Below, one piece after another: positions 12,433-45,398 of a stretch of DNA of 64,000 nt. The position numbers were made by a program, and so were the translations under genes. The DNA is taken from contig JAWWNJ010000008.1 of assembly GCA_037176885.1 (NCBI GenBank), positions 124,001-188,000 of the forward strand, read 5' to 3'. Below the pieces are notes generated by a model. The model had not been told where the DNA came from, did not search any database, and saw only the letters and a list, made by a program, of their open reading frames with translations. This stretch comes from Favolaschia claudopus (taxonomy: Eukaryota; Basidiomycota; Agaricomycetes; Agaricales; Mycenaceae). How positions within the stretch are numbered: the first letter of the stretch is position 1; each line of letters opens with the position of its first letter.

Positions 12433-12695
12433 GGTAGTCGTCGAGAATCAAAAAGTGTGAATGATCACTTATGGAATCGGCTCTCACTCGAGCGACAAAC
12501 TCATGAAACCATATATCTTCCTAAATTACCAAAGAAAATGCAGTAGATAGCCAAGGATGTATTCTATTGAATGGCTAATTAATTTTGTAGAAAAATGTTG
12601 TGTGTACGAAATGAGAGAATTTCTCGTCCAGGAGATTGGCCGTAGCGAGTTCGCCATCAGGGCGTAACGAGTTCGCCATCACTTCCTCTCTCGTC

Positions 12696-13598: not shown

Positions 13599-13731
13599 TG
13601 TATTGCTGCGACGTTTTGTGTTATCAATATTATTATTACGATTGCGGAATTCGAGTGGGAAAGCAAGCAAAACGGAAAGCAAGAAGAACAGCATTGAGAT
13701 TATAGAGCGTACAAAGACAAATCTACGAGAA

Positions 13732-14389: not shown

Positions 14390-14482
14390 GATGGTTTGGT
14401 GGCAGGTGACGAGGAGACGTTACGCTGAAAGTCACACTACCCATTCTACATCTGGCGCAATATCTCAGAAAAAAACCTTAGC

Positions 14483-15663: not shown

Positions 15664-15790
15664 ACCTATAGTTGTATGTATAATGCAATGTACCCACCCG
15701 TGGCAGGGGGGAACATTGCATTAAAGGCACACCTGGTGTGGGCAGCCAAGGTGTACCTTAATGCAATGTACCCTCGGCTACCCAATTAGG
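15664..15790 (+). repeat. Left terminal inverted repeat of element B
   Basis: Pairs with the complement of 45263-45389 without gaps. It contains the word TAATGCAATGTACC twice forward and ACATTGCATTA once inverted, spaced about 40 bp apart, which looks like a set of transposase binding sites. A related word (ATAATGCAATATAACC) sits about 18 bp inside the ends of element A. Confidence 0.92.
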
Positions 15791-15992
15791 TTAATATAAC
15801 CACAAAACCCTCAGAAAACCTTTTATCTCACCGCTCTCGGGCAATTCCGAGCTGTACCCAGTATATAATACTATATAAAATGCTGCCCTTCAAGAAAACG
15901 ACGAATATTATCGCAATCACTCGCTGCCGATCGTCGGCAGCGGCATTGTGTTTACATCTATTGTATTTAGACGCTCCCGCCCCGCCACTCAC

Positions 15993-16464
15993 TCAATCCT
16001 CCCCTTCCAGGCGCGCCTCCTCCTCCTCCGGCTCCACCTCGTCTTCAATATCCACCTCCACTGTGATCTCATCACCCGCCGCCGTCCCCTCCTTCAAATA
16101 GGCGTCCGCCTTCCGCAACATCGGCCGCCAGCGCTTCTCCAAATCAATGCACCTGGCCCGCTCGGTCGCTGCATGCTCGGCAGCATACGCCCTCCGCCCT
16201 TCCGCCAGCTCTGGAGATGACCCCTCCAACTCCACCTCTGCAAGTCCTCTCCACTCCCTCTCCGCCGACTCGCCGTAAGCAATCGTCCGTCGCATTTCCT
16301 CACGTAAAAGCCGTACCTCCTCGTTATAGCGCCGGGTGCGTGCAAATGCCTTGCACCATTCGACGCGCAGAGCTAGGGATAGAAATATAGCATCAATATG
16401 TGTAGAATGAAAGCAATAAAATGGAAAATACCTTGTTCAAAGCGTTCGTCTCCCTCCTCCTCTC
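15993..16464 (-). pseudogene. KDZ transposase of element B, 3' part, split by element C
   Basis: C-terminal end of the transposase whose main part is at 33361-36719. From the insertion point (16464) it reads GDERFEQ, a short intron, and the terminal exon ALRVEWCKAFARTRRYNEEV..EEEEARLEGED with stop at 15993. The terminal exon aligns with those of the other two KDZ genes (ALRIEWSKAW.. in A, VRVEWAAAKA.. in C). Taken alone it looks like a stray relic; joined to 33372 it completes the B gene in frame. Confidence 0.9.
16454..16464. repeat. Left target-site duplication of element C (CTCCTCCTCTC)
   Basis: Eleven bases identical to 33361-33371. The sequence is a simple pyrimidine run, so the true duplication may be shorter (8 bp would fit KDZ). 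It encodes the Glu run (G-E-E-E-G) of the transposase. Confidence 0.88.
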
Positions 16465-16553
16465 ACCAGTAGTTGTAACTAAAAGCCTCCCACCCTGCTA
16501 GCAGCCAGGTTGGACTGTTGTCTATTGTCCCCTACCTAGGCACCCCATGGCTG
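16465..16553 (+). repeat. Left terminal inverted repeat of element C
   Basis: Pairs with 33273-33360. Just inside it (about 16605-16635) are ACAGCTGTC palindromes resembling the subterminal motif of element A at 7432-7464. Confidence 0.88.
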
Positions 16554-16755
16554 GCCTCTTTTTTGCACTCACTTTACCCTATATTACCACATTCCGGCGC
16601 CGGCAGCTGTCACCGGAGGCCATGACAGCTGTCCAACGCTCCGGCGACACTAGATAAGAGATAACATTTTTTGTACGTTATTACTGCCTAATTCGATCCA
16701 CTCCGCCATGCAACCCGAAAAGGCAATTTTTTTTATTGCAATTGAGGGCTACATT

Positions 16756-19700
16756 CTACATCGTTGCAAATAATGCTGTATCCCCAGCTAATCTCTCCAA
16801 ATCCTCCGCCAGTGCAGTCCGAACGGCAATGGAAATCGAGGCCCCCCAGCTTGATTTGAATTTCCGCGCTATTTGTCGCAAAATAGCCGCCTGTTGCGCC
16901 GCGAATGCTTGTAGTCCATCCTTCACCTCAGGCATCACCGCTTGGGTAACCGTACGCCTATCCTCCCACCACAGTGCCCGCCACTTCAAAAACCGTAATA
17001 CTCTTCTCATCTCTTCACGCAGCAATTCTACTTCCTCAGTCCACCTTTCCTTTCGAGCCTTTGCGGCAGCCCACTCCACCCGTACAGCTGCATACACTCG
17101 TCAATAGCCGCCTTTCAGTCAAAGAGATAGTGCTTACCGTCCACAAGTTCCTGCTCATCTGCATCAGGACCACCGCCCTGCGTCCAAATCCAGGACATTT
17201 TCTTCTGCTTGGACGAAATTGCCGTCATTATGCCCCGCGTTGATTTCCGGCTGCTCGAACCCACACCTCCCAAACGCTCGCGAGCCAACGCGTCTGCCTC
17301 GCGCTCCTGGTCCAGCCGTATGTCGGCGTCTTCCAATGGCTTCCAGGCTTCGCACGCGGCCTCGCCCCTCAATGCAAGTAGTGCCTTGCGCGCCCTCCGA
17401 TATCGCCCCACTGCCAGCTGTATGTTCTCCGTTATCTGTTCCATCAGCACCGCTGCTCGCGTCCCACCACGCTGTCCCACCAAGTGATCATTGCGATATT
17501 GAAGTAAGTGCCGCTTTGCATGCAGCCTGCTCCGCAATCGTCGGATATTGTCATGTAGTTGTCCTTCCCGCAAACGCGCCTCCTTCTCCGCGAGCCCTTC
17601 GAGATCTGCTCGGTGTGTTACTCCCTGCATCCCCGACGGTAGGAAAAGCTTCACAGCTTCCGCTTCGTGTGGTGGTAGGTCTGCGTCCCGATTCTCATCT
17701 TCCTCCTTCACCTCCTCAATCGCCGTTGGCGCATACACCGCTTGCAATGCCCGAAACTTGCGTAGCTTCACAAAAAACCCGCGACGAAGCTCGGCGACGC
17801 GTTGGCTTTGCTCCCCCGCTAGTACTGATCGTCCCTTGAGCTCATTTCTGATCTTGTCCCTGTGAGAGAAGATAAAGCTCTGAAATAGTCAAAGGCGAGT
17901 CACTTACTGTGAATTTTCCAATTGGAGACCCATGACCAAGAACGACGTCAGGCTTGAGCCATGCAGCGTCGCCTTGCCATTCGCCGCTTCATCCAGCTCT
18001 TCCTTCGCTAACTCCAGTCGAATCGACGACTCACTCACAGCTGCGCCATTTATAATATAAGCTTGAAGATCAAAATGAGACAGCGACGGCTTACGATTCT
18101 TTCCCTCATCCAGTTCATACGGATTCGGCTTTGCTCTGTCTGCATTCCAGTCGTCAATCATCGCTTGCCACTCTTGACGCAACTCGGGGTTCAGTGTACG
18201 GTCGACCTCCTCGAAACTGGCAACTTGGCGATCGCGCTCCTCAATCGCGATTATCAGTTTACGGGGTAGAGTGGACCCTGTTTTGCCTCAGCGCCTCGTT
18301 CCTCCACTATGAGAGTATGCTTACCTTGCTTCAGATTCTTCTCCGTGTTATGAAAGTCCACCTTGTCTTCTATAGCGTCCTCCCGAGCCCCGAAATTCAT
18401 CTCCTTCGTGGCTGTAGCCAGTTCATTGAAATCCGACCATACCCTCTCCGTTCCCTCTCCATCTGTTCTACCCACCCCCTCCTGGTAGGTAAGCGAGTTT
18501 TGTACTTGACACTTGCGCTCGTGGGCCATCGCATGCCACACCGGCAAGCCGAATACAACCGTTGTCTTATCCAGGTCTAACTGCATATGCGCCGGCATCG
18601 CCGCCATCCGTTGCTTGAATCGAATCTTCCATTGGCATACAATGTCGTAGCAGAAGGCGAGGTAGAGAAGTGTGACGCCCCAGACGGCGGCAAGCACGAT
18701 ATAATCCATGTTCATATACCTGGCGGAAATCAGTATACTATGTTTCTACAGTGAAGAGACCGCTTACCGCTCCCCTTTCTGTAAATCTCCCATCCCCTGA
18801 GGGCGTTTTAGCTCGTGACGAGCGCAAACGACTGCTCCAACGCCCGATGACCGTAGACCGGTCGTTAGTCGCGTGTCCTTCTGTGAAAGCGCAGCAAACG
18901 CAACGCAGGTACTTATCTACAGTAGTATTAGTCCTGGAAGTCAGCATTTGAAAGAGAAGACGCACATCCTTCTCCGGTACCGCATTCCTGAGATGCGCCT
19001 TATACCCCTTCTCCTCCTGCATGTATCCCCAACCTGAGGCGAGAGGTGGATCGTCGTGAGCGTTGGCGCGAAGCCGATTTCGCATCCGGAAATTGGCGTC
19101 AATTGCAAGTATCAACATGAACAGAAACCTAGCCATCATATAAATGGGAGATGTCGCCAAACGAACGTACAACACTCACTGAAACTGCGGCTCCACGTCT
19201 CGCCAACCATCCGGTAAGTTCATCCCCTCCTGTGGACACGCCCAGCAAAGCACAGCGCACTCCCCTCTCGCCGTCGCCCCCACCCCTTGAGCGTCATGCG
19301 CTCGCCCAGCTCGCTTGAGGCGCCCCAAGAAGGCGAATTGGCGGCTCATCCGACCAAACGCCTTATAGCGATCCTAGAGGGATTGATTCAGATAACAAAT
19401 GACACTAAATTAGAAGGAATCAACTCACCGGAACCGTCTCCACGCCCCACGGGTCGGTCGACTTTTCCATAGTCCGAACGAAGTCGTGGACATTCAGTCC
19501 ACCCACCACAGTAGTCAAACGAAAAATCTCCAGCGTCGCGAAAGTAGCACATGTCGCAGGATCCACCGTAGTTGCGGGATACCAATCGTTGCGAAGAAGT
19601 TGTTCCAAGTTATTTGCACGGTCAGATAGGTCGCAGGCACAGTACCGATAATTGATGTCGTGGATGTGGGGAAAGTCGAGCACTATCATAGTGCGCACAG

Positions 19701-20419
19701 ATGGCGCTGGATGGGGGCATTGGTGACCACCGTGGCCGATCTGGTAGACGAAATCTAAGGATTGCAGGGTGACGCGCGTCCAATAGGATCCTATCCATTC
19801 CTATAAACGATTCAGAGACGTTTTGCGAAGCCTTTCTTGAATTTACTTACCTGCGGAGTGTGTAGAGGCGTGAGCTGGTGTCTTTCCAAGAGGCATTCCT
19901 TGCACTGGATAAAGATTCCACATTGTCGGCACCGAAAGCGTCTACAGCCAGCGGTAAACGTCTTCTGGCAACAAGAACACGATTCCGCCTGGTCGCCCAA
20001 ACCTTCCCTCCTTAGCAGCTCGTCTAGAAAGAATTGAAGCATAGGTCGCCAGCTCTTCATAGGATCGTCCTCACAATAAATTAGTCAAACTAACCAGAAT
20101 GTACATATCGCGAAACAAAACTCACCGAGCTCTCATACCTTCTGCGTTTCTCCCCCGTCTCTGCTGTTTCTTCTCCTGCCGCTGCGTCGTTGTCCGGCAT
20201 TGGGGTCCAATTTGCCAAATCGTCGAGCTCCGAGGGGAGCAATTTGCGTTTTCTTGGGCTAACATTGACGGACTTGCGTACCCCTCGACGGCCGTCTTGC
20301 GAAGAAAAGAAATCCATATCTTCCGTAGTATCCCCTGCTTTCACTTCATAGTCGACATAGGAATTGACGCGCTGAGGACGATTGGCGGCTCGCGCCTGGG
20401 AGTGCGTCAGAAAAGACAT
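16756..20419 (-). CDS. KDZ transposase of element C (CxC2 type), uninterrupted
   Basis: Multi-exon gene. Start MSFLTHSQARAANRPQ at 20419. Cysteine cluster CSCCQKTFTAGCRRFRCRQCGIFIQCKECLLERH (about 19880-19980). CxC2 part with INYRYCACDLSDRA (about 19640). Core landmarks are LAIDANFRMRNR (about 19080-19115), CARHELKRPQGMGDLQKGER (about 18770-18830), CYDIVCQWKIRF (about 18640), ECKVQN-like KCQVQNSLTY, and GVGRTDGEGTERVW (about 18440-18480). Coiled-coil exons end in MSWIWTQGG (about 17200) and the last exon VRVEWAAAKARKERWTEEVEL..LFATM stops at 16756. It has the KDZ signature D-G-E-G-x-E-R-x-W. Read outward to the left end of C. I found no frameshift, so this is the best candidate for an active transposase here. 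Exon borders are approximate. Confidence 0.9.
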
Positions 20420-20665
20420 TGGAGGAGAATGATTTGATTGTTTCTGACCGGTATAGTAGCCGCCAGTGCCACCACCGGCACGAGCCAAGTAGTTCAGAGC
20501 CAGATGAGACGCGAGGAAAGGAGAAGGATGTTTGTTGACGTCAGACGGTATTGACGAGCAAGTAAAATAATCCCATTTTGGGAAGAACACAATTGGCTAG
20601 ACATAAGTATTGTAGACATAAGAACTTGTGAACTACATCCTATACTACGCTGACGACGTTCACTC

Positions 20666-22210
20666 CATGGGCAAGACACTAGTTCTAGCCCGCTTGATCA
20701 CCACCGCCCCGTCAAACCCATGGAACGCGTAAGCCTCGCGACGCTCATGCTCGCGATGCCTACCGTCAGTGCAGCGACAGAAAACATGTTTCGCCCCGTA
20801 CATACTCAACATCTACAGTCGGTCAACTTATCAGCGATACATCATCACAGTGAACTCAGTGCATACCTTGATGACATGGAATGGTTTATCACCAGCCGCC
20901 CGCGCCGCCGCCGCCGCCGCCTCGACCGTATCATCTTCCGCAGTCTCCTGCTCCATATCATCCACAGTCTCAGTCTCGGTGAAGGGGCGCGGGAAGAATG
21001 AGTTGAATCCGAGTCTGGGCAGAACGTTAAGCAGCGAGTAAAAACCGAAACAAGAAGAACGTACCGAGACCAAACACGCAGAAGATAGCTGGAAGCCGAG
21101 GGTGCAGAACGCGACGGTCCGGTGGGCATTGAAGCCTCGCTCGCCGAATTACCAGACGCAGCCGCGGAGAAAGCTTCGAAATACAAGTCATTGTCGTCGT
21201 CGTCGTCGTCGTCGTCCCACCCAGCTGCGTCGAGGGGCCCGATGTACTCGTCGGGGAGAGAGAAGACGCGGGGCGGGATGAGAGGCGGTACCTCGTCGTC
21301 CGAGTCCCTGAGACAAAGTAGGAGTTAATATCATAAAGTAGAGATCATTAAGAGAAATAAGATCTTACACCTCATTGCCAGCTCGTTGATGTTGACCGGG
21401 AGCGACTCCTTCGGCAGTCCCTTGAGCTTGCTGGGCAGCTTGCTGGGCAGCTTGCTGGGCGGCGAGCATAGCAGCCTCAGCGTGGTCGGCAGCTTGTTGT
21501 GCGGCTTGTTCTGCGGCTGCGGCGACCGCTGCCGCCGCTATGGTTGCTTGGGCGGTGGCGAGAACTTGAGCATTGTACAGGTCTTCAAAGTATTGCGTCG
21601 CAACATCGTAAGACATGAGGATACGAGCATTGCGCTCTTCACGGTGAGTGCGGGGGCGAGGTTTCGTGCGGAACTGCTGATGAGAGCGAGCAGCGTAACG
21701 CTCGCGGAATCGCCGCACGAGATGGAGTTTCTGGGCTCTAGAGTTATATCAGCAAGTGTTGTAGCCAGAGAATGACGGGTTGAACGTACGTGGGGAGACC
21801 AAAGATCGAGTTGGTCGTGAGCGTCTCGTAACAGAGAGCCTTGCAAACTAAAAGATAAATCGAAACGATGATCAGTTGCAAAGACGTTTGTGAAAGAGTA
21901 TTCACGAACCGACGGGTGGCGCAGCACCGTCTGGGGCGGGCGCAGTATTGGTGTTAGCTTGGGGCGCATCCTCAGGCTGTGGCAGCGAGTCGCGGTCGAC
22001 AAGAGAAGGATCGCCAGGAGAACGCGCAGGAGAGGTTGGAAGGGATGGGGTGCTGGGAAACGCCTCAGCGCGACGGGTTTGGGTGGGTGAAGTGGACATG
22101 GAAGAGGGGGGGAAAGTGTCGAGGTGTGTCGCCTCTTCCAGGGCCTCTTTTAGTTCGGAGTCGTACCAAAATGGGACGTCGATAGGCGAGTTGAGCTGGT
22201 TCGTCATCAT
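20666..22210 (-). CDS. Hypothetical Ala/Gln-rich protein H2 of element C
   Basis: Several exons from MMTNQLNSPIDVPFWYDSEL (22210). A Pro/Ser-rich segment is followed by GSLLRDAHDQLDLWSPH and KLHLVRRFRERYAARSHQQ, then YDVATQYFEDLYNAQVL with a long Ala/Gln helix (AAQQAAQQAAQQ, about 21420-21545). An acidic exon with an eight-residue Asp run from a GTC microsatellite (21193-21220) and FNSFFPRPFTETETVDD come next. The last exon near 20666-20820 appears to end HREHERREAYAFHGFDGAVV. I do not recognise a domain. It is divergent from the TET/JBP-like gene, with 274 bp between the starts, so the two may share a promoter. Exons are tentative. Confidence 0.5.
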
Positions 22211-22409
22211 TAACCAGATAATGATGCCGAACGACTTCAGATCTGGATCTTCAAATCTTTAGAAAGTTCGAAACAAATGGTTTACGGAGATACTTACCGT
22301 TTCCCGGTAACGCGCGCCACGCCAACATCAAGTCCCTCCAATTCAAAGTCTCGGAAGAGACTCGCGACAATAAAACACCCGGTCATCCCTCCTCGTCCTC
22401 CCCCATTCC

Positions 22410-22484
22410 CTCTCCACTCATTCCTGCTCTCCACTCGTTCCTCCTCTCCACTCGTTCCTCCTCTCCACTCGTTCCTCCTCTCCC
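22410..22484 (+). repeat. 17-bp tandem repeat in a pyrimidine-rich leader
   Basis: The unit ACTCGTTCCTCCTCTCC is repeated about four times and ends directly before the ATG of the TET/JBP-like gene. Pyrimidine-rich stretches before fungal start codons often belong to core promoters; here the repetition is unusual. Confidence 0.75.
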
Positions 22485-24221
22485 ATGCGCCGGATCATCA
22501 ACCCCGACCGCGTTTTTCCCCGCCCACCTCGCAAGGATGGGGCTCGAATTCCACCATTCGAAGTGCAAGGCCTGGACAGATCACTGGACTTGGAACCTCA
22601 CCTTGATTTCGACTTGAAGGAACGACTTCAGCATGCGCTTGCGCGCGGCGACCCTTCTCTCCCCTACCCTGGCTATCCTCTGCCTGAAGAGCGTGCCCCA
22701 CCGCCTCGAGCAGGATACGCGGATGCACAGGTGCAAACGGAATCCACCGTCACTCGCGTCGTCACTCAACATGCACTGCAGCGCACGAAGGCCGTTCTCG
22801 CTGCTGAACGTGCCTAACGACACCGCATCTTGTGGTCCTCTGCAATGACTGTGAGGTATGGCGACGTCATCCGCCCCTTCAACCCACGCTCTCTGATTCG
22901 CGTGATGGACGGCGAGGCGTTCGACCCGAGTCTCATCGAAGACCGTGACTACGCTCTCAGCGAGGTGACGGGGAGTAACTCCATTTTCCGCTTCCGCCTG
23001 ATTCCCTGGACCGGCGGGTAAGTCAAACCACTCTGTTTTAAGCCTTTATACACAACATCTTACCGTTCCAATAGAAAATCGAGGGTTGTGGTCTCTCAGC
23101 GCCGAGTTGTTCTTGTCCTCGGTGGCCGCCCAGTCAATCGCGAATGGGATCGCGATGTGGTCAATCCGACGGTGAAGGATTGTACTCAAGTCGCCCAAGA
23201 TTATCGAGGCCGACACCCAGAAGCTGGCTACCCTGTTTTGTCGGGGGGTGTTGGTGAGCATTTCAATCGTTCGCCAGAGCCGGTGTGTATTCTGCTTTTG
23301 AAGACAATGCAAACAGCGCTGATAGAGTATTTCTAGCCCGCAGGACCGCAACCGGGTCGTGTTCTTGATTGTCTTGCGTTGTTCGCGCTGCTTGGAACGG
23401 TCGCCATGTGCGAGCTGCTGGGCTTTGCGAATGGTGAGTTGTGGCTGTGCTAATCGGATCATCGGATTAATCGGCTTTACCTTTCAGGCATGTTTCGACT
23501 TTATTGCAGAGTGGCCTACACCGCCATAGAATATCAAAAATCTTCCTTCACCTTCGTCAAATCCGACGCACAGTATCCCTGCCCTGCCAGCATCTTCTCC
23601 GCCGTCACCGTCGAACTCGGCGGCCCACATTGTCGTACAGATTGGCGTGGAGACGTGCCACCATACCAACCTGACAGCTGGGCGATCCTCACGGCCATTG
23701 GCGACTATAGGTATACTCGAGGCGGACATGCCATCTTCTGGGAGTTCGGTATAGTCGTGCAGTTCCCTCCTGGAGCGTGCATTCTGCTCCCCCCCGGTCT
23801 CGTTCATTATTCATTTGTCGAAGTCCCCGACCACCATCATCGATACTCGGTCCTTCAGTGGGCCGGCTCTGGGATAGATCGTTTTTTGCACAACCGCGAC
23901 GCGACCGACACCGACTTCGCAAAGACTGCGACGGAGGCTGACCATGACGAACGCGAGGCGCGTCGGTGCCGTGACCATCGTACTGCCATCGACTTCTTCC
24001 CTCGTCCAGACCAACTTGCGGAAGATTGGCAGCGGTTTTCGTATCTGGTTGGTCCTAACCCACCCCCAGGGCCCGCGCTGCAGCTTCCCATTCCCAACGC
24101 GACGCCCACTGCCGCTGCCGCTGCTCCCGTTCCCACTCTCTCTGCCGATATAACTGCCTCGCCCGCCTCGCCCGCTCCACCGCCAAACGAGTCCGGTGCG
24201 GCAAACGAGTCCGCTGCATAG
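22485..24221 (+). CDS. TET/JBP-type double-stranded beta-helix protein of element C, HxD apparently lost
   Basis: Multi-exon. MRRIINPDRVFPRPP start at 22485; exon with YGDVIRPFNPRSLIRVMDGE (from about 22857); exon KSRVVVSQRRVVLVLGGRP (from about 23076); last long exon GMFRLYCRVAYTAIEYQ (from 23489) to 24221. The last exon holds a cupin-like core: WAILTAIGDY..GGHAIFWEFGIVVQFPPG, ILLPPGLVHYSF and HRYSVLQWAGSGIDRF. This is the signature of a very large mushroom family that I place with the 2-oxoglutarate/Fe(II) TET/JBP-like enzymes linked to KDZ elements (reported for basidiomycetes by Iyer and colleagues, 2014). Relatives have H-x-D just before W-x-x-I-T-A-L-G; here the stretch is CRTDWRGD with no histidine. 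The distal His (VHYS) and the Arg (HRYS) remain. Likely non-catalytic, or a divergent enzyme. Internal introns are not fully resolved. Confidence 0.7.
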
Positions 24222-24472
24222 ATGCCGTCTCTTTTATCATTCATTCCTCCCTTGCGCTACGTACCTACGGCCATTCTCTTACAACGCGTCACTTAATACT
24301 TATCGTCTTCGTACTTACGGTCATTTTCCTATTTCTTACAACGTGCTTTTTTGTACCCTTCGAGTACCGACAGGGTTTTTTATACGGTGTTCAGAAGAAA
24401 ATACAATCGTTTGACTCCTACTATTTGCGTGCAATGATACAATTGATAAGAAGAATCCAAGAATCCAACAAG

Positions 24473-25108
24473 TCAGCGAATGAATGAGAAATTGCCGGGG
24501 CGGTAATATTCAGCTCGAGTGTGTATATCCCTTTCCTCTGAATCATCCCGACACCCTGGACGTTGTGTGGCATCATCTTCCTCCCATTCCTCCCAACTAG
24601 CGTCTTCATCGGGAGATCTTGGGCGTCGGCGCGGAGCACAAGGTGGGGCTCGGTTGGAGGGCAAGGGGTGAAGAGATTTGGATTTAGCAAAAGATTTGAG
24701 AGCGGCGGCCGTGACAGCTCGCCGCGTACGTCTTAAAGTGGAGAGTTCGTTGAGACTCAATTTCGAGAACTTGATGACAATTATCCACTCACTCGACGTA
24801 ATTGCGGCGGTATTGTGCCGCCTTGACTGCGTGCTCTAATTGGACGTCTGCGGGGGCGCGGCGGAGCTTTTCCCGCCTCCTAATGGGTGGCGCATTAGCA
24901 GAAGAGGATAAAGGTAAAAGTACTTACGCGCGCATGCGAGCTCTAGCCTTCTCGTTAACAGCTGCCCTATGTCTTTCCCGTTCGACGTTGGTAAGTCTGA
25001 AAACATACCTCAAGTAATACCTATTCACCTCTGTCTATATTCCCAAGCTGCCTGCGCCCGTCTTTCGAGAATCTGTTCCTTCGTTAGTTTGGATTTGGGG
25101 CGTGCCAT
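24473..25108 (-). CDS. Small basic protein R3 of element C
   Basis: Several tiny exons. Start MARPKSKLTKEQILERRAQ at 25108, then ERERHRAAVNEKARARMR (about 24950), REKLRRAPADVQLEHAVKAA (about 24830-24870), and the C-terminal exon SLNELSTLRRTRRAVTAAAL..YYRPGNFSFIR with stop near 24473. The Arg/Lys/Glu helices match the style of R1 and R2. The C-terminal exon has a Pro/Arg stretch and an acidic W-E-E-W-E-E segment. Function unknown; a small DNA-binding partner of the transposition genes is a guess. Confidence 0.55.
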
Positions 25109-25919
25109 GGTGGCAGGTGGAGGTTTAGCGAGTGGCGGTGCCTCTTACGGACAATGGGACTTGTACGTCGTAGAGAGCGAACAACTGGGAGAAAGCGACA
25201 CGAACTAGTCTGTATTATGTTAGAGATTGGTATTGAATAGAGGATTGTGAAATGCTCACCGTGAAGAGGAGGGCGACAGACGAGAAGATCGTTTTTATGT
25301 CGACTTTTTCATGGCGATGAGAAGCAATGCCAGTACTTGAGGTTTTGTAGGAAAGGAAGCGAGAGATAATGTTGGAGAGGATATAGAAGTTATGTTGTAT
25401 GTATTTCGACGCATTTGAAAGTTGGTTGGCATTATCGGAATGGACGAAGTGGAAGATAATGAAGTCGGTACTTGTTACCACACTCTCGCACTAGGATAAT
25501 TAGTGTAAGTTCTGAGTTCGTCATCGTTTACGCCGTTGAGGTCTTACAGAGTGTTTGAAGAGCTGATTCTTGTTCATGTCGTTAGATATCGATCCCCATA
25601 CCTATTCAGCGCTGTTGTTGGCCGCCTAGAGTTATTGAGGAGGTCGAGAGGTCGTCGTCGTTCGTTGTGTGACTGGTGTGATTAAGTGACATGAAGCCGG
25701 TCTTGCCGCTACGGCCGTACCGCAACAACTCGGCGTCTGTTCCGTTCGGAGTTTTTCAGTGAACGGCCAGCGAACGGCTGATGACAGGCGACACGGAACA
25801 GAGTTCTCTAATTCACCACTCAATGCAATTGTCTTCAAAGAATCCCGCGCAGGTACATTGAAGAACAGTAGTAGTCCAGACAAGAAGAATATTCATTTGT
25901 AGTTCAAATAAAACAAAGA
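25109..25919. other. No supported gene
   Basis: Spacer between R3 and V2. Open frames are short and lack family resemblance. Nothing else seen. Confidence 0.45.
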
Positions 25920-27094
25920 TTACAGGGCGCGGGAACGAGGAATACGACGAATGAAGTCAGTGTTTTGTCCGTGCTCGTAAGCGGCGTTGGCAGCCTCAAG
26001 AGTATCAAATGAGGCGTACAGACCGCCCGGAACAGCGGTCACATTAAGACTGCACTCCAAGTGGGAGCGATATACCCCGGGGTTAACACCCCGGCAGACG
26101 ACATACCAACGATCCTGTGCGCCGAAGGCGAGGGGGCTGTTTTCCAGCGAGGCCGGTGGAATTTCGGCAGCCCCAGCGGGCGGTGTGCTGTCGGCAGTCC
26201 AGCCCTTGGATCTGGCGTACTCGAGGGCGGCATGGGCGGAGTCGACGGTAGGAAACCCGCAATGTATTGCCACGCCGTGGCCTTTGATGAGGGGCTCGAC
26301 TTCACTCCACTGCGTGAAAACTCCCACCTCCCCACCGAAGAAGATGACATAGGCTGCTCGCTTCTGTCTGCGGCGGGGTGTACCCGCGATGTTTCGCGCT
26401 CTGGCGCCGGGAGTGTTCATAGTTAAAGCCCCGGCCCTGAACCAGGAGATGACAACGCCGTTGAATTCGGGAGAACGCACTTCATAAGCGCGAGCGGGAG
26501 TTGGGCACGGAGGTGTGACTGGGCGGGGATTGGCCGGGAGCGCGGGAGACGGGGGAGGCGACGGTGATGCTGGAGGCGAGGGAGACGCTGGAGGCGAGGG
26601 AGACGCTGGAGGGGAGGGAGACGCTGGAGGCGAGGCGTCGGTGTCAGAAATTTCCAGATCTAATAAATAAGTGAATGATTAGTGCGCAGGTCAACGATCG
26701 ATGGCGATAGCGGCTTACCTGAAATATTGTAAACTGAGACGTCCTCCCCGGTCTCGGTATCAGAATCCGACTCAGATGATGAAGAGTCCGTGAGGGAGGA
26801 CTCGGTAGAGAGATCAGTAGATTCAGAGGGCGGCGGGGCTTCGACTTCAGCGGGCGGCGGGGCTTCAACTTCAGTGGGCGGCGGCGCCAGCGCCTCAAAT
26901 TCAGAGGGAGTCGTCATGAGCCGCTCCATTAGCTTGAGCAGCATAGGGGGAAGTTGGGCGGTGAGAGAACGAAATCCGAGTCGATTAATGAGTTCATCGA
27001 TTTGCCTATCATTTAGACCTTCGGTGAGACGATCCAGCTCGCCAAAACTGAGGGCGCGCGGGAGGTTGGCAGAGGTGGATGGAGGGAAAGACAT
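25920..27094 (-). CDS. Protein V2 of element C with two viroplasmin-like domains
   Basis: Start MSFPPSTSANLPRALSFGEL at 27094. The N-terminal helical part includes LTEGLNDRQIDELINRLGF. A Pro/Glu/Ser linker follows, then one intron near 26660-26730 and a perfect-looking SPPASP repeat (26545-26640, 18-bp units). The second exon holds two tandem viroplasmin/RNase H1-N-like modules: AAYVIFFGGEVGVFTQWSEV..KGHGVAIHCGF (about 26240-26370) and RWYVVCRGVNPGVYRSHLEC..VPGGLYASFDTLEAAN (about 25950-26130). The stop is at 25920-25922. The second module keeps the G-x-x-PGVY core best. In RNase H1 this module binds RNA:DNA hybrid; the function here is not known. Confidence 0.75.
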
Positions 27095-27289
27095 GCTAGA
27101 GAAGTGCGGCGGGAGAATGAGTTGAGGGAGGAGGGAAACTGACGGGAGGACGACAAGATAGTGGCTTGGTGCTGGGAAACGAACCAAATCAGAAGCCGGT
27201 TCGCTTTGGTTCGACGGCGCCGGGCGTTCGTATTCGGGTTTTCCGGCAGAGCAAAGAAAAACGAGGCATAATCATGAGACGATCGTTGG

Positions 27290-27860
27290 ACGATCGACAA
27301 CTGCAGACGACGGGCCGGACCATGTTGCATGGCAATGCCTTGTTGCATTCAGAGTCGCTTCTGAGTTCATCTGTCAATACACAGTTCGTGGTCAGAAACC
27401 GTCGCGGAAGAATGTCCAAATGAGGGTTTTCGTTTGTTGTGGAGGGTAAGGCGTGCTTCCCGACGGTGTTGGAGGTGGATTCGAGAACCCTCAAGGACGG
27501 CGTCGGAGTTCATGTGTCAATACACAGTTCGTGGCCGGAAAAAACATTTCCGGAAGGATGAGTACGTATAGGCACGGATAGGTACGGATCCAGAAAGGTG
27601 GTGATGGAAGCACCCTACGCGACGGCGTTTTCGGTGGATTGAGGACCGTTTAGGCAAGCAAATACAGCTATGGAGAAGTTGTGGAGACATTGTTCTGTCA
27701 CAATGTCCGCCGAAAGGGTGATATTGCAGCAAGCGAAGGTTCTAGGGCAGTCGAGGCCATTCCCAGCAGATTGGCGACCAGTGTTGAGGGCGAGGTGCTT
27801 ATCCGAGTTCATGTGCTGATATACAGTTCGTGGTACGAAACCGTCGGGGAAAAAGCTTGG
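27290..27860. repeat. Degenerate repeat cluster around ACAGTTCGTGG
   Basis: Three copies of a block reading roughly GAGTTCATGTGTCAATACACAGTTCGTGG, followed by C/GGAAACCGTC-like sequence, begin near 27365, 27507 and 27808. They are accompanied by two copies of CGACGG(T/C)GTT..GGTGGATT (about 27458 and 27620). No gene is supported across 27190-28600; this cluster is the only structure I see there. Confidence 0.6.
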
Positions 27861-28641
27861 CAAATGAAAAGAGTAGCAAAAAGTCGGCCCGTTGGCCATG
27901 AGTGCCAGGCAGAATGAGTTGAAGCTGTCTTGCGAGGTCAGACGACTTGACGAAAGGTGGAGGAAACATATAATCGTACCAATAAAGCTCCGTTCCAGTT
28001 CCATGGAACTTGGAAGGATCGACGAGCAGATTGATAGATCGGAGTGGCACAGCCAGCGTGATAGAAGTGTGACGGAAGCAAGCGGAAGCACCCTGATAAT
28101 TTGCTTGGACACGCGGGGATGCGCTTCCGTGTTTCTGCGACAGTGCGATTTGCATGAATAAATGAACACGCTGGCGGCTTCAATTGTCAAGCAGAATGTT
28201 GGGAATTGGTCTTGTTAAGGAAAAGGAAAGCGCTGAACGCGCTCATGAGAGCTCGAGCCGCTAAGTTTCCTCCGCAGAATCCCGGTCCGCGAATATTGAT
28301 GCGAGATACGCATCGTGCTTGAAAGGAAGGCCGTGTAAGAACCTAAACGGGGTTGGATTTGTCGTCATGGGAAAGTGGGAATTGAATCCGAGAGCCGCGA
28401 GCCCGACAGTATCGCAGGAAATCGCCGAAGAGATTTTTGGGGAGGGAAAGAGTTTTGCGGGGTGGGTAATTGACCATTCAAGCAGAAAAAAAGGGAGGCG
28501 GGGGGCACAAGAGTCATTGTTTCGTGTACGGAGCAAAGAGTAACTAAGTAATTTTAATCCACCGCCAAAGAGATGAAGGCGCTGCGTCAAGGGAGTATTA
28601 GTATCGGCGGGAGACAGAGAAAAAAAGAAACGGACCTGGAT

Positions 28642-29257
28642 TTACACGACTTGGACGATACCCCACTGGAGGGCGGAGTTGAAGGCTTCCAGGGCGAGGT
28701 CTTGAGAATTGTAGACCTTGCGCACTCCTGCGACGCCGCTGATGGCAACGTCCGAGAGGGCACTGATGAAGGGAGGTTAGAAATATGACAATACGAAGAA
28801 CAAAAAAACCTACTACTGGTCGACAACGCCGACAAACCGTCCACGGGTGATCACATACCACTCAGGAACAGGAGTGGTCTCCGGAACAGGGCCAAGGGAC
28901 TGGGTGGGGACGGTGATGAATATCTCGTTGGCGGTGTACGGGCCCTCCGTGCGGAGGTGCTGAATCAGAGCGGCTGGGAGGCCGGCACCGGGTCGAGGCG
29001 TTTCCTTCTCCTTGGGGGCGGGAGGCTCCTTGTGTTCCTTGGCCTTGGGAGCAGCGGCGGGGGGCAGCGGCAGGGGCGGGAGCAACGGCGGGAGCAGCGA
29101 CGACCGGAACGTACATGACGACTGAAATCGATGAGTTTGGGAGGGCAAGTAATGGGTAATGAGACTACGTACCGACGCTGGGGAGCGCGACGACGGGCAT
29201 GGCGACCATAGGAAGCATGGAGGACACTGCTGGGAAGGCGGGGAGCTGGTAGGACAT
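28642..29257 (-). CDS. Viroplasmin-like protein V3 of element C
   Basis: Start MSYQLPAFPAVSSMLPMVAM at 29257, intron near 29120-29175, Ala/Pro-rich linker, then GLPAALIQHLRTEGPYTANE. The domain itself reads PEWYVITRGRFVGVVDQ, an intron near 28770-28815, and ALSDVAISGVAGVRKVYNSQ..AFNSALQWGIVQVV with stop 28642-28644. The domain matches the second module of V2 (WYVV-x-RG.. / ..S..ALxAFxxA). It is a single module here. Same orientation as V2 and divergent from X2. Confidence 0.65.
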
Positions 29258-29548
29258 GGTGGGAGTTGGAAAGAGGCGACGAGTCTTTTGAGTTGTTTGG
29301 TTGAGGGGATTTATGCAGAATCGGAGATCATCAAAAGCTGAATTGGGCCTGATTTGGAGGAGAGGCCGTAGCGCAGGCGGGGATATTCAAAGGCGGCGCT
29401 GACTTGTCACATTCGCACTCGTCGTGAAAGAGTACTTCAGCAAAAAATCGCTTAAATTTGCGCCTCAAGCTAAAACAAACCAGTAAGATTTCAAGTGCTC
29501 AAGCACAGCGGCTCGTATCTTACCACCGAGTCGTTTACACAGGCAGAC

Positions 29549-32525
29549 ATGGCAAAAAACGGACGAGTCGTCTCCAAACGCAAGCGCACTTCGAAACGCG
29601 TCGCAAAAAAAGACAGGCGTAATCTCAAATTGTGGGCCGAAGGAGCGCGTGAGGAAATTCTAGCACCACATATCGCCGCGTATACCGACGCTTTGGAGCG
29701 CGGCTGGCGCGCGGAACGAGACTATCTAGCGGAAGTCTGCAAGGAATTTCACGCCCGTATTTCTTGGCGCCTGACGGACGTGGAAGAGCCCGATTTGCCG
29801 CTGCCAGAGTTCGATCGACTTGCGATCCCAGAAGTGGAAGAGCTGGACGAAGAAGAAAAAGCGTTGAAGCGCCTGCGCGTTGAGACTTTGAATGCGGTAG
29901 GTGTTTTGAAGATCGTGACGAGTGACGTTACTCATTGAATCTATTTTTGCCTTGTCCTGTGCCTATTTATCGCCCTCTGTGTTTTCTGCTCTCTTACTGC
30001 TTAACTCTGCTCTCTCTTGCCTTGAATCTCAGAGGATCGGTCGATGGCTGAAGTATCGGGCTCGCCGCCTTCGCAAGAACACCTCTGGCAATCCGCTTAA
30101 AGACCCCTGGGCTCTCTATCTGGCTAAGCTGTCTGGGATTCTGACCGCTCGCAAAGCTCGTCAAGGCTATCAACAATACATGCACGAATCGTACTCTACA
30201 GATATCGATCCTGTCGTCCAAGCCCGCTGGAAAGCAAAGTTCACTGACGAAGATGCGCCGCCCACAACTAAAGGCATCGACGCCAACTTCCGCGCTACCG
30301 TCGCTCGCGAGCTGTTCAAAGAATTGCCGGAGGAGGAGCAGGAGGCGATTCGTCAGCGCGCGCGGGACGAGGCACAGAAGGAGAAAGAGGAGTATATCAA
30401 AAAGATGAAGGACGGACCATCGAAAGCTCCAGCGGACCGGCAAGTGTAATTATGTTTCTTTCATTTGAGGCAAGTACGATGTTTTAACAAAATTGTATCA
30501 GGTGCATCGACAATCTGGGCGTTTTCATGACGAATGTTCATCGCGGCGTTCATGAACGCACTGGTCTGGTCGGCTTTAGCGTCTTCGGTGGACCGATGCC
30601 TGCATCTGGTGGCGAATTGAGAACATTGACGTGCGTAAGAGATTTTTCATTGAAGACAAGATATGCTTACGCCTCCTTTCAGCATTTCGCATGGTATGAA
30701 TCGTGAAGTCCCCCCGTGTCACTTTCCACAGTGGTCCAAGGCGCGATTCGGGCGCGAAGTCTTGGACTTCATGAAAGAGTGGCTGAAAACTGCGTATAGT
30801 AAGTTCCCTGTTTTCAAGTCGATCTTACCTCGTCTTCTGACACTTACTCCAGCTGCGGAGGATTGTCGAGAGGCAGCGTTGCCCTCAAACGATGCCGAGG
30901 GCGACGCAGACCCGTTGGCTGGAGCTAAATACAAGATTGACGACAACGAAGACCTTGGTTGGGGCAGCGACGACGACAGCGATGCATCTTCGACGTCGGC
31001 CAGCGACTCCGAAGATGACGACAGCGAGGTGGACAGTGAGGTCGAGCGCGATGTACGCGGGAAGAGAAAAGCTGAGACGAAGAGACGTCAGGGGAAAACG
31101 GGGGGGAAGAAGAAAGAGACTCGGGAGGACTCTGACGAAGACGAGTCGTCTAAGACGAAGAGTAAGAGAGCGGAGAAAGAGAAATCGCGGAAGAAGGAGG
31201 AGAGAGAGAAGGGGGACGAGAAGGAGAAGGAGAAGTCGCGGAAGAGGAAGGAGAAGGAGAAGGAGGGGGAGGGGGAGAAGGACAAGGCGGAGAATCGAAA
31301 AGGCAAGGAGAAGGAGGGCGAGAAGGAGAAGAAGTCGCGGAAGAGGAACGAGAAGGAGAAGGGGGGGGGAGAAGGACAAAACGGAGAATCGCAAGGGCAA
31401 GGAGAAGGAGGGGGAGAAGCAGAAGGAGAAGTCGAGCAAGAGGAAGGAGAAGGAGGGGGAGAAGGAGAAGTCGGACAAGGCGGAGAATCGAAAGGGTAAG
31501 GAGAAGGAGGGGGAGAAGGAGAAGTCGAGGAATAGGAAGGAGAAGGAGGCGTCGCAGCATGGGAAGGATAAAGCGTCTACTTCTGGCGTAAAGCGCAAGA
31601 CAACGGATACGGCGGCAACTGGTGATGATGATGCCCAGCTCGAGGCAGCTCGCAAGAAGCGCAAAGGGGACGAAGAGGAACAGCGTGGGGGGAAGAAGAG
31701 GAAGGCAGATGATGGTGGGGACGAACAACGAAAGAAAGCCCGGGGGGAACGTCGAGCAGACCAGGCGACTCCTGCAGACGACGACAAGGAACCATCGGGT
31801 TCAGGCGCTGACGGTAAGAGATTGCTTTTGATGACCGACTAGCCGTTTTTTAAAATCGAGATTTAGGCGGAAGCATACATGCACCATCAGTTGCTGGCAC
31901 CCCCCCACCTTCATCACCTTCCCGCTCCAGGTCACCTCCGCTGCGTGCCCCACAACCCAACATACCTGAATGCCCCGCGGACGCTGCGCAGTGGTTCAGG
32001 GAGGTTTACAAGGAGGTGACCGCAACAAAATTGGGCGACAACTTCAACGCCCTTCTGGTGGCGATGATTGAGCTGGAGCGAGCGTACGAATGGGAAAAAA
32101 CGCAGGTAGGGCTCAAAACCACGAACCGACCGTCCCCAGTCTCGTCGTGGATCAGGGCCGGACGCGGTACGCGTGGTGGTATAATGTCCGGCGGCTTTGG
32201 TCCTTCGATTGGAAACATTGTCAAGTACGAGGAAGGATGGTGGGACTGGTGGCGGGCGCTTCAGCCGGCGTGGCGCGTGAAAGACGCTGCGAATCGCTTT
32301 GAACGAGGGGAATATCCACAGCCTACCGCAGAAAATTGGCTTACGCTGCGGGCTCCGGGTCCCAATGGCTCCTTAAGCCTCGTAGCATCGTTGTATTGGT
32401 GGGGTCAGAGGTTGGAGAAGGTTGTGGACAGCGAGGAGAAGCGCACCTGGGTTGAGGCCGTTACAGACGTCAAGTGGATGCTTCGCGGATTGTGTGCCGC
32501 GCAGGGTAAAGTCAGCCCAGCTTAG
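29549..32525 (+). CDS. X2 gene of element C, with a +1 frame change at a G9 tract
   Basis: Several exons. MAKNGRVVSKRKR (29549; an upstream in-frame Met exists at 29495), helical part EEILAPHIAAYTDAL, then RIGRWLKYRARRLRKNTSG..DPWALYLAKL (30034 on), NFRATVARELFKELPEEEQ, CIDNLGVFMTNVHRGV (about 30502), SVFGGPMPASGG, ISHGMNREVPPCHF (30682), and TAEDCREAALP. A long Lys/Glu/Arg low-complexity region spans 31020-31560. The final exon (31867-32525) has GWWDWWRALQPAWR and NGSLSLVASLYWWGQ, the W-rich motif shared with X1 and X3. Within the Lys/Glu region the coding frame moves by one base at nine Gs (31361-31369); reading on without the shift gives an early stop at about 31499. The gene is read toward the right end of C. 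Function unknown. Confidence 0.75.
31020..31560 (+). repeat. Purine-rich Lys/Glu-coding low-complexity tract
   Basis: Irregular repeats of AAGGAGAAGGAG / AAGTCGCGGAAG with almost no pyrimidines on the plus strand, coding K-E-K-E-K and S-R-K-R-K in X2. Long open frames on the opposite strand here are by-products of the purine bias. Confidence 0.8.
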
Positions 32526-33272
32526 CGCTTCCGAGCTTGCTCGCAAAGTTGCCGGACTTGGTGTTTTTATTTAACCTTACTTCGTATCTCTATTTATGTC
32601 CTCATTCTTTTATTCAGCCTCATTCTCAGTACAGTAACCTTGATTTACCAGCGATAGTTATTCCTCAAAACATTCATAATACAAATTTTAGTCGATTTTT
32701 CTATTTGGGTGTGACATTGAGTATACCCGTTCGACTTGTAGATTTTTTCAAAGAGATGGATTACATAATATAAGGACTTCATACATGACGACCGGAGGCG
32801 GCTCGCCAAATATCCACTGAAGGAAAACTCGACGGCGTGTCTGTTTCACGCGTTGCATGGAGAACACTTCAGCGTGAACCTCTGGCTCACCTTAACTGAA
32901 AATCATCTTTTCCCAGTCTCCAATGCCGGTAAGCAAACTGCAAAGAGAGACTAACTGTAAGTACTATACTATAACCCAATCTATAAGCACCTAAAATTAT
33001 AATGTCTTGGTTGGTGGGTTGTATGCCTGTTTGGCACCTGAGATATTGCGTCGTCCCTGCATCTGACCGTCGAAGGGGAACCAAAGGGAGAGCGTGGGAA
33101 GGAGATAGCGGGAGATCTCACCTGTCAAGCTGATAATCTGGACAGCCCGGTATCAGGAAGCATGGTCCGTGATGGACAGCGGAGGTGGCCGAAAAGGGTA
33201 ATTGACCGGCCGGAACAGCCCACCTAAAAGAGTGCCTAGCCAGGCGAGCAAAAACCCTTTAATACGTGTCTT
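32526..33272. other. No supported gene (right subterminal region of C)
   Basis: AT-rich stretch after X2, then sequence with GGACAGC/CTGTC words (33140-33180) near the right end. I see no coding sequence. Confidence 0.5.
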
Positions 33273-33360
33273 CAGCCATGGGGTGGCTAGGTAGGGGACA
33301 GAAGACAACAGTTCGCCCTGGCTATGTTCATGTCCTTTAGTATATATATTACAACATGGG
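33273..33360 (-). repeat. Right terminal inverted repeat of element C
   Basis: Complement begins CCCATGTTGTAATATATA and then AGCCAGGGCGAACTGTTGTC. It matches 16465-16553, with the core 51 bp at 88% identity. Confidence 0.88.
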
Positions 33361-33371
33361 CTCCTCCTCTC
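33361..33371. repeat. Right target-site duplication of element C
   Basis: Same 11 bases as 16454-16464 (CTCCTCCTCTC), directly after the right end of C. Confidence 0.88.
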
Positions 33372-36300
33372 CCGTCCCGACATCGTACCAGATCCAGGAA
33401 AGTGTATGGGACCCCTCACCGGCCGCCACACCCGCCGCTCGAGCCACTCCGCCCTCGATGATGGCGCCGCCCAGCTCCGCCCAGTGTTCGTTCTCAGCCT
33501 TCTCCTCGTTCGTCAGCGCCCGTTCATTGAGGGCGCGGACGTCATCATCCCTCAGGACTCGCAGCTTCTCTTCCCAGGCTCCATGCCCACGCAGCGCGAG
33601 CAACGCCGCTCGAGCGTAACGATAACGAAGTTTGGCAATGTGAATCCGGATGTTAATGAGACGTAACATCCCCTGGCCCCTCGTCAGCAGGAATTGCCCC
33701 GTGAAATTGCGGATTTTGAAACGATTTGTCATCGTTCTCGTCCGCAACCCCTTCCGCACACCTTCCAGCGCCTCACCAGCCTCCCCCTCGCGCATCCGAG
33801 CCTCCACCTCAGCCAAACCCGCTGCGCACACCCGGTCCCTCACCTCCGCCTCCTCGATCTCCGAGGGTAGGAAAAGGCGAGTCTGCTCAGGCAGCTCCTC
33901 GCCGTGCCCGTCGTACACGGCTTTTTGAGCGACTGACAGGGCGGTGCGCACAGCCGGCATATACACGCGCTGTAACTGACGGAATCGGCGAATCTGCCTC
34001 AGCAACGTCGTTCGCCGCTTCGTGAATCCCAAGCTCTGAGTTGCTGTCGGCTCCTTCAACGCGCGGACATCCACGGTGAGTTTACGTCTGACGAATTTCA
34101 GCTGTGCTGACAGTCCCAGCGAACGCAAGACCTACTGTGTTTGCTCGATTTCCAAACCCAAGCTAAGGAACGCACCGGGGGTGTGCTCAGGCTCTACCTC
34201 GGCCCCTCCACCCGTGCAAACAAACTCTTCCGACGCTATTTCCAGCTGGATCTCCCGTAACGATTTCTCTGCACGACAGTAAGCGTCGTTCTCTGTCGCC
34301 GGACGGACAGGCGCTCACCTTTCCCCTCATCTTCGACCTCGAAAGGCGAATCATCCGCCGTCGTATGCTGCGTGGATTCCCACCGCTCTACCCACGCTCG
34401 CCATTCCCTCACCTCCTCCGGCCGCTCTGCCTCCAGCCCCTCCGTAAACGCCTCAAACGACGTCGCGTGTGCAGTGCCGTCTTTGATAGCGACCGCTAAC
34501 CGATGTAACAGCACACGATCTACATGCAATATCATCGTCAGTCCAACTTAAATCATAAAGCAGGAAGGAAAGAACACTTACGCATCGCCAAAAGTCGATC
34601 GTAATTATGAAACCCGAATATATCTTCCAGAGTTATGGCGCGATTCGCCTGCGACATCAGTCGCGTCGAACCCGCCGCGCCGTTCGTCATATCCCAATTC
34701 TGCTCTATCCCCTCCCCGTGCGATCTCCCTGCCCCGGGCATCCAATGGAAAGAATAAGGTGAGTGACATTTTCTCTTGTGGGCGGGGAGATGGAAATTGG
34801 GCACTTTCCACCACACGTTCGCAGGGCGAACGGTGGGGCGAATCGAAGAAGGCAGCGATGACATGCGTGCCCAGAAATGCAGAGCATACTGGCACGCAAT
34901 GTCATATGAGATGATCAGGTACAGTAAAGTGATCTGGAAGATGCTGGATATGAGCACGAAGTCGACGTTGCATTGTCTGAACGCAAACTCGTTAGCCAGC
35001 ACCAATAAAAGCGAAGCCTCGTCCTCACCTTTCCCCGACCTGCAAGTCGCCGATTCCGTTCGCCCGCCACATGTTATGTCTCCCACAAGTGACCCCCACA
35101 ACACCCGTCGCCCGCAATCCCTTGGTCCGTTTTGAGTTCGCCAGGAACATAGCTTGAAATCCGGAGCAGTTCGACAACTCCTCCTCGTTTGCGTGCTTCG
35201 CGACATGTTCGTTGTATCCGTCTGACCCGTAGCGCTGACAAAAATACCCCCACCCGTCCCCAAGGACTGGATCCAAGGCCTCCGAGGAGACCTGTCGATT
35301 GGAGAGCCGAAAATTTGCGTCGACCGCAAGGAAGATAAAGTAAAGGAATCTATCGCATCATCAATACAACACAATCTCCGCGTATTCCATACTCAATACT
35401 CACTTGTAAACCGGATCGATGTTCTCCCACCCTTCAGGCAAGTTCCACCCGGGCTGGGGACAGGCTCGACATGGCAGCACCAGCTCACCGCGTCCCGTAC
35501 CCATAACGCCGTCCTCAAAATATCCCCGCTTCCCTCGCTTGAAACGCTTTACCTCCCTCCACTGCCGTATGATGTGCATAAAAGGTCGCCGCCGATCCTA
35601 TAAAAAATTCGTCAGCATCCAGCTGTACCCTCCAAATGTATCCGCGTACCGGCGGTGCGTCAAGCCCGTCGTGATTCGTACATTTCTCCAGTCCACGCAC
35701 AAAGTGATATGCGGAGACCTTCCCCATGCAGTTGAGCGTTTGGAACGACTTCAAGACGCGAAAAGTGGCGCAGGTGTTCGGGACGTCAACTGTCGCCGGC
35801 CACCAGCACGCTCGCATCAACTGCACGCGTCGAAGCTCCGCCGGATCCTCCCCCACCTCGCAGCCGCAAAAGTCCACATTGATCTCGTGGACGCCTGTAA
35901 GATCATACAACACGAAATCGTGCGCGGCGGACTCCCTGAAGGGGCAAACGACGCCCGGCGGATGCCCAAGCTGGACCCGCAGTCCCAGAATCTGCAGCCA
36001 CCTGCGATTGCGCACGAAATGGGTTCCCGTCCAACGCTGATCGTCTCACGCCGTCAGCGACATGATGAGCATGACATTGTGAGTCCTCACCTCCACAAAA
36101 TGAGTAGGGTGTTGCCTGTGAACGAGAACGATGCACTCGGAGCAGTACATTACCTCCCCAGCACAGGCCTGATCCGCACAGCGCCACTCAGGCGTCCCAT
36201 CGCACTCCCGCTGCGGGCACTCTCGCCGACGATCAAGACAGCCGGATCCGCCGCATCGAGCGTAGACCTTGGGGGAGCCGCGACCCTCGCGGCGCAGCGC

Positions 36301-36719: not shown

Positions 36720-36785
36720 GGCGAGAAGGAAAGGGAAAACGGGAAGCTGAGGGCGGGGGACACCGAGCGGGCACCGACTTTACTA

Positions 36786-39167: not shown

Positions 39168-39231
39168 TACCCATTTCGGGGTGTTTGCCCGGCCAAAGTG
39201 TCCGATCACAGCTTGTCTCCTCATCCATCCC

Positions 39232-45389: not shown

Positions 45390-45398
45390 CCCAGCGAC
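45390..45398. repeat. Right target-site duplication of element B
   Basis: CCCAGCGAC, identical to 15655-15663. Confidence 0.9.

Follow-up and report, generated by a model that had tools for sequence, protein, structure and literature searches.

This study concerns a 64,000-nucleotide stretch of DNA from Favolaschia claudopus, a wood-rotting mushroom of the Mycenaceae, in which three KDZ DNA transposons lie one inside another. The stretch, referred to below as the window, covers positions 124001-188000 of contig C8 (3,244,283 bp) in an assembly of 264.6 Mb and 460 contigs; the labels C4, C6, C7, C22, C37, C42, C45, C104, C107, C115, C164, C178, C188 and C237 likewise denote contigs of this assembly. 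The outermost transposon, element A, contains element B, which in turn contains element C, and A itself interrupts a repeat block that we call D (Table 1). The order of the nest is D > A > B > C. A first-pass annotation of the window had described three levels of nesting, which holds for the KDZ elements, but the nest as a whole has at least four levels because A lies inside D.

Three KDZ elements and their ends

KDZ transposase genes were located by tblastn, using as queries eight loci of this genome that carry KDZ. Three are found in the window, all on the minus strand, running from about 10.9 to 7.7 kb in A, from about 20.4 to 16.9 kb in C and from about 36.0 to 33.4 kb in B, and an extra match to the last exon of a KDZ gene lies at 16403-16158, left of C. 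The KDZ domain (PF18758) is matched at 5.6e-53 in C, 9.3e-55 in B (deposited protein P0001) and 2.7e-36 in an exon of A, and CxC2 (PF18803) at 2.1e-28, 1.5e-34 and 3.4e-42 in C, B and A, respectively. By these domain matches the three proteins are assigned to KDZ, and their transposase activity is predicted. The gene-finder models of the A and B transposases lack the first exons and were compared with the deposited proteins; the exon model of the C transposase was built by hand, the gene-finder version having started too late. The proposal of the first-pass annotation that C and possibly A retain unbroken transposases is borne out, with 1057 amino acids without stops in C and a deposited protein of 1134 amino acids (P0197) in A, compared with 1118-1132 amino acids in the three closest listed relatives of the same species. 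Each of the three elements also carries a second gene on the plus strand of its right side, which we call the companion gene.

Table 1. Features of the nest and its surroundings, in window coordinates
Feature	Position	Strand	Remarks
Repeat block D, left of A	6085..7154		99.2-99.8% identical to six copies, 96.2% to a seventh
Element A, KDZ DNA transposon	7155..47353		CACCTCATA...TATGAGCTG (end GAGCTG); 10,464 bp after subtracting B and one duplication
A transposase	7501..11388	-	open; deposited 1134-amino-acid P0197
A companion gene, first part	14138..15662	+	interrupted by B; approximate start
Element B, KDZ DNA transposon	15663..45390		CACCTATAG...ACACCTC; 12,821 bp after subtracting C and one duplication; relatives on C104 and C188
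B left near-terminal inverted repeat	15673..15793	+	121 nt, 91%
B transposase, remainder	15993..16463	-	broken exon continues at 16432-16463, followed by an intron (16373-16431) and the orphan last exon (15993-16372)
C left target-site duplication	16457..16463		CTCCTCT
Element C, KDZ (Kyakuja-like) DNA transposon	16464..33363		CACCAGTAG...ACATGGGCTC; 16,900 bp; ends common to seven other copies in different flanks
C left subterminal inverted repeat	16503..16553	+	51 nt, 88% (45/51)
C transposase	16756..20419	-	open; 10 exons in model, 1057 amino acids; carries KDZ and CxC2
Reading frame in C with RNase H1 N-terminal domain (PF01693)	25923..26678	-	two stretches
C companion gene	29919..32525	+	approximate; exon model uncertain, chiefly at 5' end
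C right subterminal inverted repeat	33273..33323	-	51 nt, 88%
C right target-site duplication	33364..33370		CTCCTCT
B transposase, main part	33364..36719	-	deposited 981-amino-acid P0001; runs into C, ends PML
B companion gene	41978..44900	+	deposited 822-amino-acid P0121; end approximate
B right near-terminal inverted repeat	45260..45380	-
A companion gene, second part	45398..46967	+	beyond B; end approximate
Repeat block D, right of A	47354..54126		exonuclease-gene exon split by A
Long terminal repeat (LTR) retroelement in D	54127..58724		LTRs of 926 bp with 2 differences; 5-bp duplication GCCGT
Repeat block D, continued	58725..64000		extends past the window

The ends of C are fixed by comparison with its other copies. 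Searches with the edges of C reveal, besides the window, seven other two-ended copies (C37a, C37b, C164, C45a, C45b, C22 and C42), and inspection of about 300 bp to either side of every end shows that all eight start with CACCAGTAG and finish with ACATGGGCTC. Six of the other copies are flanked by duplications of 7 bp, namely GGAAAAG, CTGGGAC, AGGGAGC, AGCGGAA, TCCCGCT and AGGCAAA. Because these seven copies show the ends, C is placed as in Table 1 with a 7-bp duplication, and the limits of 16465-33360 and the 11-bp duplication of the first-pass annotation are not retained. The other copies have CTC on the right and C on the left in common, and therefore the 11 bp resolve into CTC from the right end of C, the duplication CTCCTCT and a C from the left end, although both readings give an identical joined sequence. 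The inverted similarity of 45/51 positions that had been assigned to the ends of C is real, but it is subterminal, beginning 39 bases inward of the left end.

B is built to the same plan. The duplication CCAGCGA flanks B at 15656-15662 and 45391-45397, and its 121-nt inverted repeat sits 10 bp inside the element ends; the possibility that this repeat is unrelated to B was considered and rejected. Around A, TAGACTG is duplicated at 7148-7154 and 47354-47360, several A-family relatives start or stop within one base of the ends of A, and the empty sites in D described below agree with them. The target duplications of A, B and C are thus alike in being 7 bp long, within the 4-8 bp range of the KDZ superfamily. 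As a control for chance, a 7-bp direct repeat was found at fixed random junction pairs in the window in 19 of 200,000 draws, and in 9 of 2000 draws when 5 bp of freedom was given on both sides.

C is very young. Compared with C37a and C37b it has 3-4 substitutions in about 5.2 kb: on the left 3 of 2337 bases are substituted and on the right none or one of 2865, with one gap base in addition. Over 605 transposase codons (4 of the 10 exons) there are two differences from these copies, both synonymous; against C164, over 603 codons of 4 of the 10 exons, nonsynonymous divergence (dN) is 0.040 and synonymous divergence (dS) 0.529. More distant relatives, at about 65-72% identity, are among the matches listed. 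The near-identical copies at other sites show that C was mobile very recently. A search with the interior of C gave an incomplete set of matches, which did not include the window itself or C37a, and all genome copy searches, whether for B, C or the whole A-B-C stack, score the best candidates only. On contig C37, one copy of C appears to be split by an inversion, with pieces at 406124-409028 and 412230-413066 on the minus strand and at 426078-433251 and 434650-436013 on the plus strand; its apparent breakpoint corresponds to window positions 23426-23433 (8-base overlap), and its outer CTGGGAC duplications lie in opposite orientation to each other.

Genes interrupted by the insertions

All three KDZ elements are inserted in coding exons, and the first-pass statement that the incoming elements broke the genes of their hosts agrees with our results, A having broken the exonuclease gene of D, B the companion gene of A, and C the transposase gene of B. 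The evidence is most detailed for C, which splits the penultimate exon of the B transposase gene past the KDZ catalytic domain. At the right edge of C the minus-strand frame of B reads SWIWYDVGTGEEE (GTGEEE), followed by PML and a stop, and the deposited B protein P0001 (981 amino acids) terminates in GTGEEEPML. When the B flanks are joined, they give SWIWYDVGTGEEEGDERFEQ (GTGEEE-GDERFEQ), a 59-bp GT..AG intron and an in-frame last exon from ALRVEWCKAF, and a relative of B, P0002 (1115 amino acids), extends past the junction with GSGEAEGDELLEEALRVEWCK. Six of the relatives of B found in the genome (on contigs C104, C188, C4, C7, C178 and C107) were aligned; in every one the broken exon is ungapped across the site, and the intron starts with GT and ends with AG at matching positions. 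The gene-finder models of the relatives on C104 and C188 overrun at the 3' end. The match at the B junction is far beyond chance, and it confirms that C is a KDZ element in the B transposase gene, next to its orphan last exon, and that excision of C restores the frame through to the terminal exon, both of which had been put forward from the first reading of the window.

As a result of this insertion, B keeps its KDZ and CxC2 domains and loses a C-terminal tail of 133 residues. Among 119 relatives (the best 120 of 1229 matches, minus P0001 itself), 111 cover at least 60% of the lost tail, and dN/dS in the tail relative to B is about 0.06 for the relative on C104, 0.11 for that on C188 and 0.16 for that on C4, with dS between B and its relatives near saturation and, for one pair, beyond calculation. 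Since this tail is conserved and under selection, B is probably crippled and probably unable to mobilize itself, a reading against which it has to be said that 6 of the 119 listed relatives cover less than 30% of the tail. The relative on C107 has a stop codon in the tail comparison. The earlier assertion that B cannot move itself goes further than the data, because B loses no more than a conserved tail and has both its KDZ and CxC2 domains intact.

It had also been suggested that an intact B copy might be sought elsewhere in the genome. No close second copy of B was found among the best candidates, where the next long matches reach 70% and one piece of 478 bases reaches 75%; what does exist are the uninterrupted relatives, at about 70% DNA identity. 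In the genome note, of which passages are cited here, 86.8% of BUSCO genes are duplicated in the assembly (PMC10905254), which suggests that the assembly holds both nuclei. If both nuclei are assembled, the single copy of B with C would mean that the nest is carried by one nucleus only. Within B there is also a tandem duplication of 421 bp at 40534-41378, with 100% matches.

B itself lies in the companion gene of A and not in its transposase gene. When the A flanks of B are joined, an open frame of 346 amino acids crosses the site (EPSAPA-TAQNSAPV).

The site of A in D can be read from D copies that lack A. The two flanks of A find their matches at one common set of places elsewhere in the genome, where they adjoin with a 7-base overlap, and in all seven D copies read (L074-L080) the site is empty, the two sides being continuous with a single 7-base overlap. 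An exonuclease-like frame, VPWDDAGVSLIQIATAYDVV, is open across the site in all seven, and the joined exonuclease model from D matches DNA_pol_A_exo1 at 1e-7. A gene-finder intron near the A site proved wrong, as the exon runs through the site.

The left end of D is sharp, lying no more than a few bases from 6082 where the flanks differ, and its right end lies outside the window; the matches listed around the D copies include no inverted copy of the left end, which was sought to locate the right end. At three further places in the genome only about 50 bases of the left end (6074-6132) are shared, at 96-98% identity, which hints at a family whose members have one end in common. Six substitutions are specific to the window when it is compared with all seven D copies over 3297 aligned bases (7117, 7139, 47367, 47683, 47812 and 47872). 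All six fall between -38 and +511 of the A insertion, and three are CpG-type transitions; they could be due to insertion-associated mutation or methylation spread, an explanation made post hoc on few sites. Window positions 57700-64000 have a near-identical duplicate at C8:199062-205362, about 17.4 kb downstream on the same contig. At 934-1654 there is a long palindrome with 359-nt arms, 88% complementary, which has many copies in the genome.

Order of insertion and alternative explanations

We regard it as almost certain that the nest arose when members of three different KDZ (Kyakuja-like) families moved in by cut and paste, in separate events and each with a 7-bp duplication. A landed in a coding exon of the exonuclease gene in a copy of D, as the empty sites show; B landed in an exon of the companion gene of A, as its ends, duplication and frame show; and C landed in the penultimate exon of the B transposase gene, where six uninterrupted relatives add to the same kinds of evidence. 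By containment, therefore, B entered an existing A, and C entered an existing B. Several observations weigh against this explanation or parts of it. The case for B in A is made from its ends, duplication and frame and not from an uninterrupted relative, and the insertion falls in an exon rich in Pro and Thr. The copy C164 has a duplication of 8 bp, GTATGCTC, compared with 7 bp in six of the seven other copies. The aligned exons of C22 and C42 contain a stop and small gaps, so the C family is not uniformly intact. Finally, the junctions of A, B and C were read from the assembled sequence and not from raw reads.

Containment does not say whether A arrived in D before or after taking in B and C. 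It is possible, if rather unlikely, that B and C were already within A when A entered D, a history that differs from the one above only in the timing of that last step. In favour of this history, a single A duplication in D flanks the whole stack, and the features examined are compatible with either order. However, B and C each retain separate ends and are each flanked by a duplication of A or B sequence, respectively, so they entered their hosts separately; no second copy of the stack is listed among the best candidates, and a unit of 40 kb would be far longer than the elements of 10-17 kb that we measured. The D sequence of the window differs from its nearest copies at 7 bases in about 3.3 kb. 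In the absence of gene conversion, the arrival of A in D would be younger than this small divergence, and B and C would be likewise that young only if they followed A.

A chimeric assembly, in which pieces of KDZ repeats were mis-joined and the nest is one in appearance only, is highly improbable. The numerous KDZ matches and the C copies that are more than 99.8% identical can confuse assemblers, and odd arrangements are seen at C37b and in the near-identical 6.3-kb duplicate on C8, but a chimera would need three 7-bp duplications of host sequence, exact ends and restored frames all by accident, and passages of the genome note describe a 265-Mb PacBio assembly from libraries >10 kb (PMC10905254). 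It is just as improbable that C prefers KDZ genes as targets, as might be thought from its position in one and from the coding exons hit by all three KDZ elements of the window, since a search of 0.6-1.4 kb of flank at E <= 1e-5 found neither KDZ nor companion sequence next to any of the seven other C copies (best E = 0.004, at C22), whereas the flanks of C itself, used as a positive control, matched strongly.

Companion gene, known KDZ systems and mobility

The companion models of the three elements are weakly but significantly similar by pairwise BLASTP (A-B 2e-8, A-C 7e-6, B-C 2e-5), and no Pfam match was found for the A companion fragment and the B companion model that were scanned. A search with P0121, in which the 7997 candidates sharing most words were scored, gives 76 proteins including P0121 itself, all from Mycena or Favolaschia, and 40 of these 76 are apparently on contigs with one of the best 120 KDZ matches, which is a linkage by contig and not by distance. 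A structure model built from an alignment of 48 of the 76 proteins is mostly helical and of middling confidence, with a mean predicted local distance difference test (pLDDT) of 69.8 and a predicted template modelling score (pTM) of 0.36, and a search of the PDB with this predicted structure gave no match at E <= 0.001. The RNase H1 N-terminal domain (PF01693) seen in a reading frame of C is also listed for some of the Mycena companion relatives. The companion gene is not mentioned in the cited passages of the KDZ papers. We tentatively propose that fungal KDZ elements of this group may be two-gene systems, with a transposase and a companion read from opposite strands, and that the nest may have knocked out complementary halves of them, in that A would have lost its companion but retained its transposase, B would have lost the tail of its transposase but retained its companion, and C would have kept both.

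The KDZ group was reportedly named by Iyer et al. in 2014 (cited in PMC8290104). Among described elements, Kyakuja-1_LB and Kyakuja-2_LB of Laccaria bicolor have, in the passages of the source cited, 7-bp duplications, 5'-CA..TG-3' ends and no terminal inverted repeats (Kojima 2025, PMC12730594). Like them, A, B and C have a KDZ transposase, 7-bp duplications and a 5'-CA left end; the right end of A is TG as in Laccaria, whereas those of B and C are TC when the duplication is taken as 7 bp. Unlike the Laccaria elements as described there, all three have inverted repeats at or near their ends, and the TET/JBP encoded in Laccaria is not seen in the reading frames scanned, which are a subset of all frames. 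In Cryptococcus neoformans, KDZ1, KDZ2 and KDZ3 are described in passages of another report as active elements about 9-11 kb long; their duplications measure 4-8 bp and their terminal inverted repeats 139-241 bp, and they have CxC1 (PMC12810828), whereas C is larger (16.9 kb) and A-C have CxC2. The KDZ transposons of Pleurotus ostreatus have the CxC2 cysteine cluster ahead of the KDZ domain, as here, and the passages covered contain no KDZ nesting (PMC7641404). The deposited KDZ proteins of F. claudopus and Mycena, including P0001 (B), P0197 (A) and P0002, are about 48-79% identical among those listed; they are annotated singly as CxC2 domain-containing or hypothetical, and their names give no hint of a nest. 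Taken together, the elements fit KDZ and are probably Kyakuja.

No KDZ-in-KDZ nest appears in the titles or abstract openings returned by our literature searches, which lie mostly outside subscription journals, and two papers use 'nested insertion' and 'Kyakuja' for other matters in the passages covered (PMC9297572, PMC8226300). A search of the genome for KDZ domains, in which the 150 best of 699 first-look candidates were scored, gave at least 202 KDZ domain matches, which are counted exon by exon and are thus not 202 elements. Because of these at least 202 matches, the term 'exceptional' applied to the nest in the first-pass annotation is too strong. Nesting of transposons is ordinary. As a rough estimate, about 150-700 elements of about 12 kb would make KDZ about 1-3% of the genome, and therefore KDZ-in-KDZ pairs are to be expected and a triple, though uncommon, should not surprise. 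The nest is well preserved and adds a new case, unusually easy to read, to a kind already known; ordinary cut-and-paste explains each of its steps.

The value of the stack lies in showing which KDZ family entered which, and in supplying exact ends, duplication length and gene content for mushroom elements that are little characterised. Its near-identical copies elsewhere make C a good candidate for a KDZ element that is active today. If the companion is required for transposition, C alone would be self-mobile, and A and B would depend on relatives acting in trans. The breaks in A and B are natural cases of the loss of one part, the companion gene or the transposase tail, and suggest parts to test for a role in the mobility of these elements.

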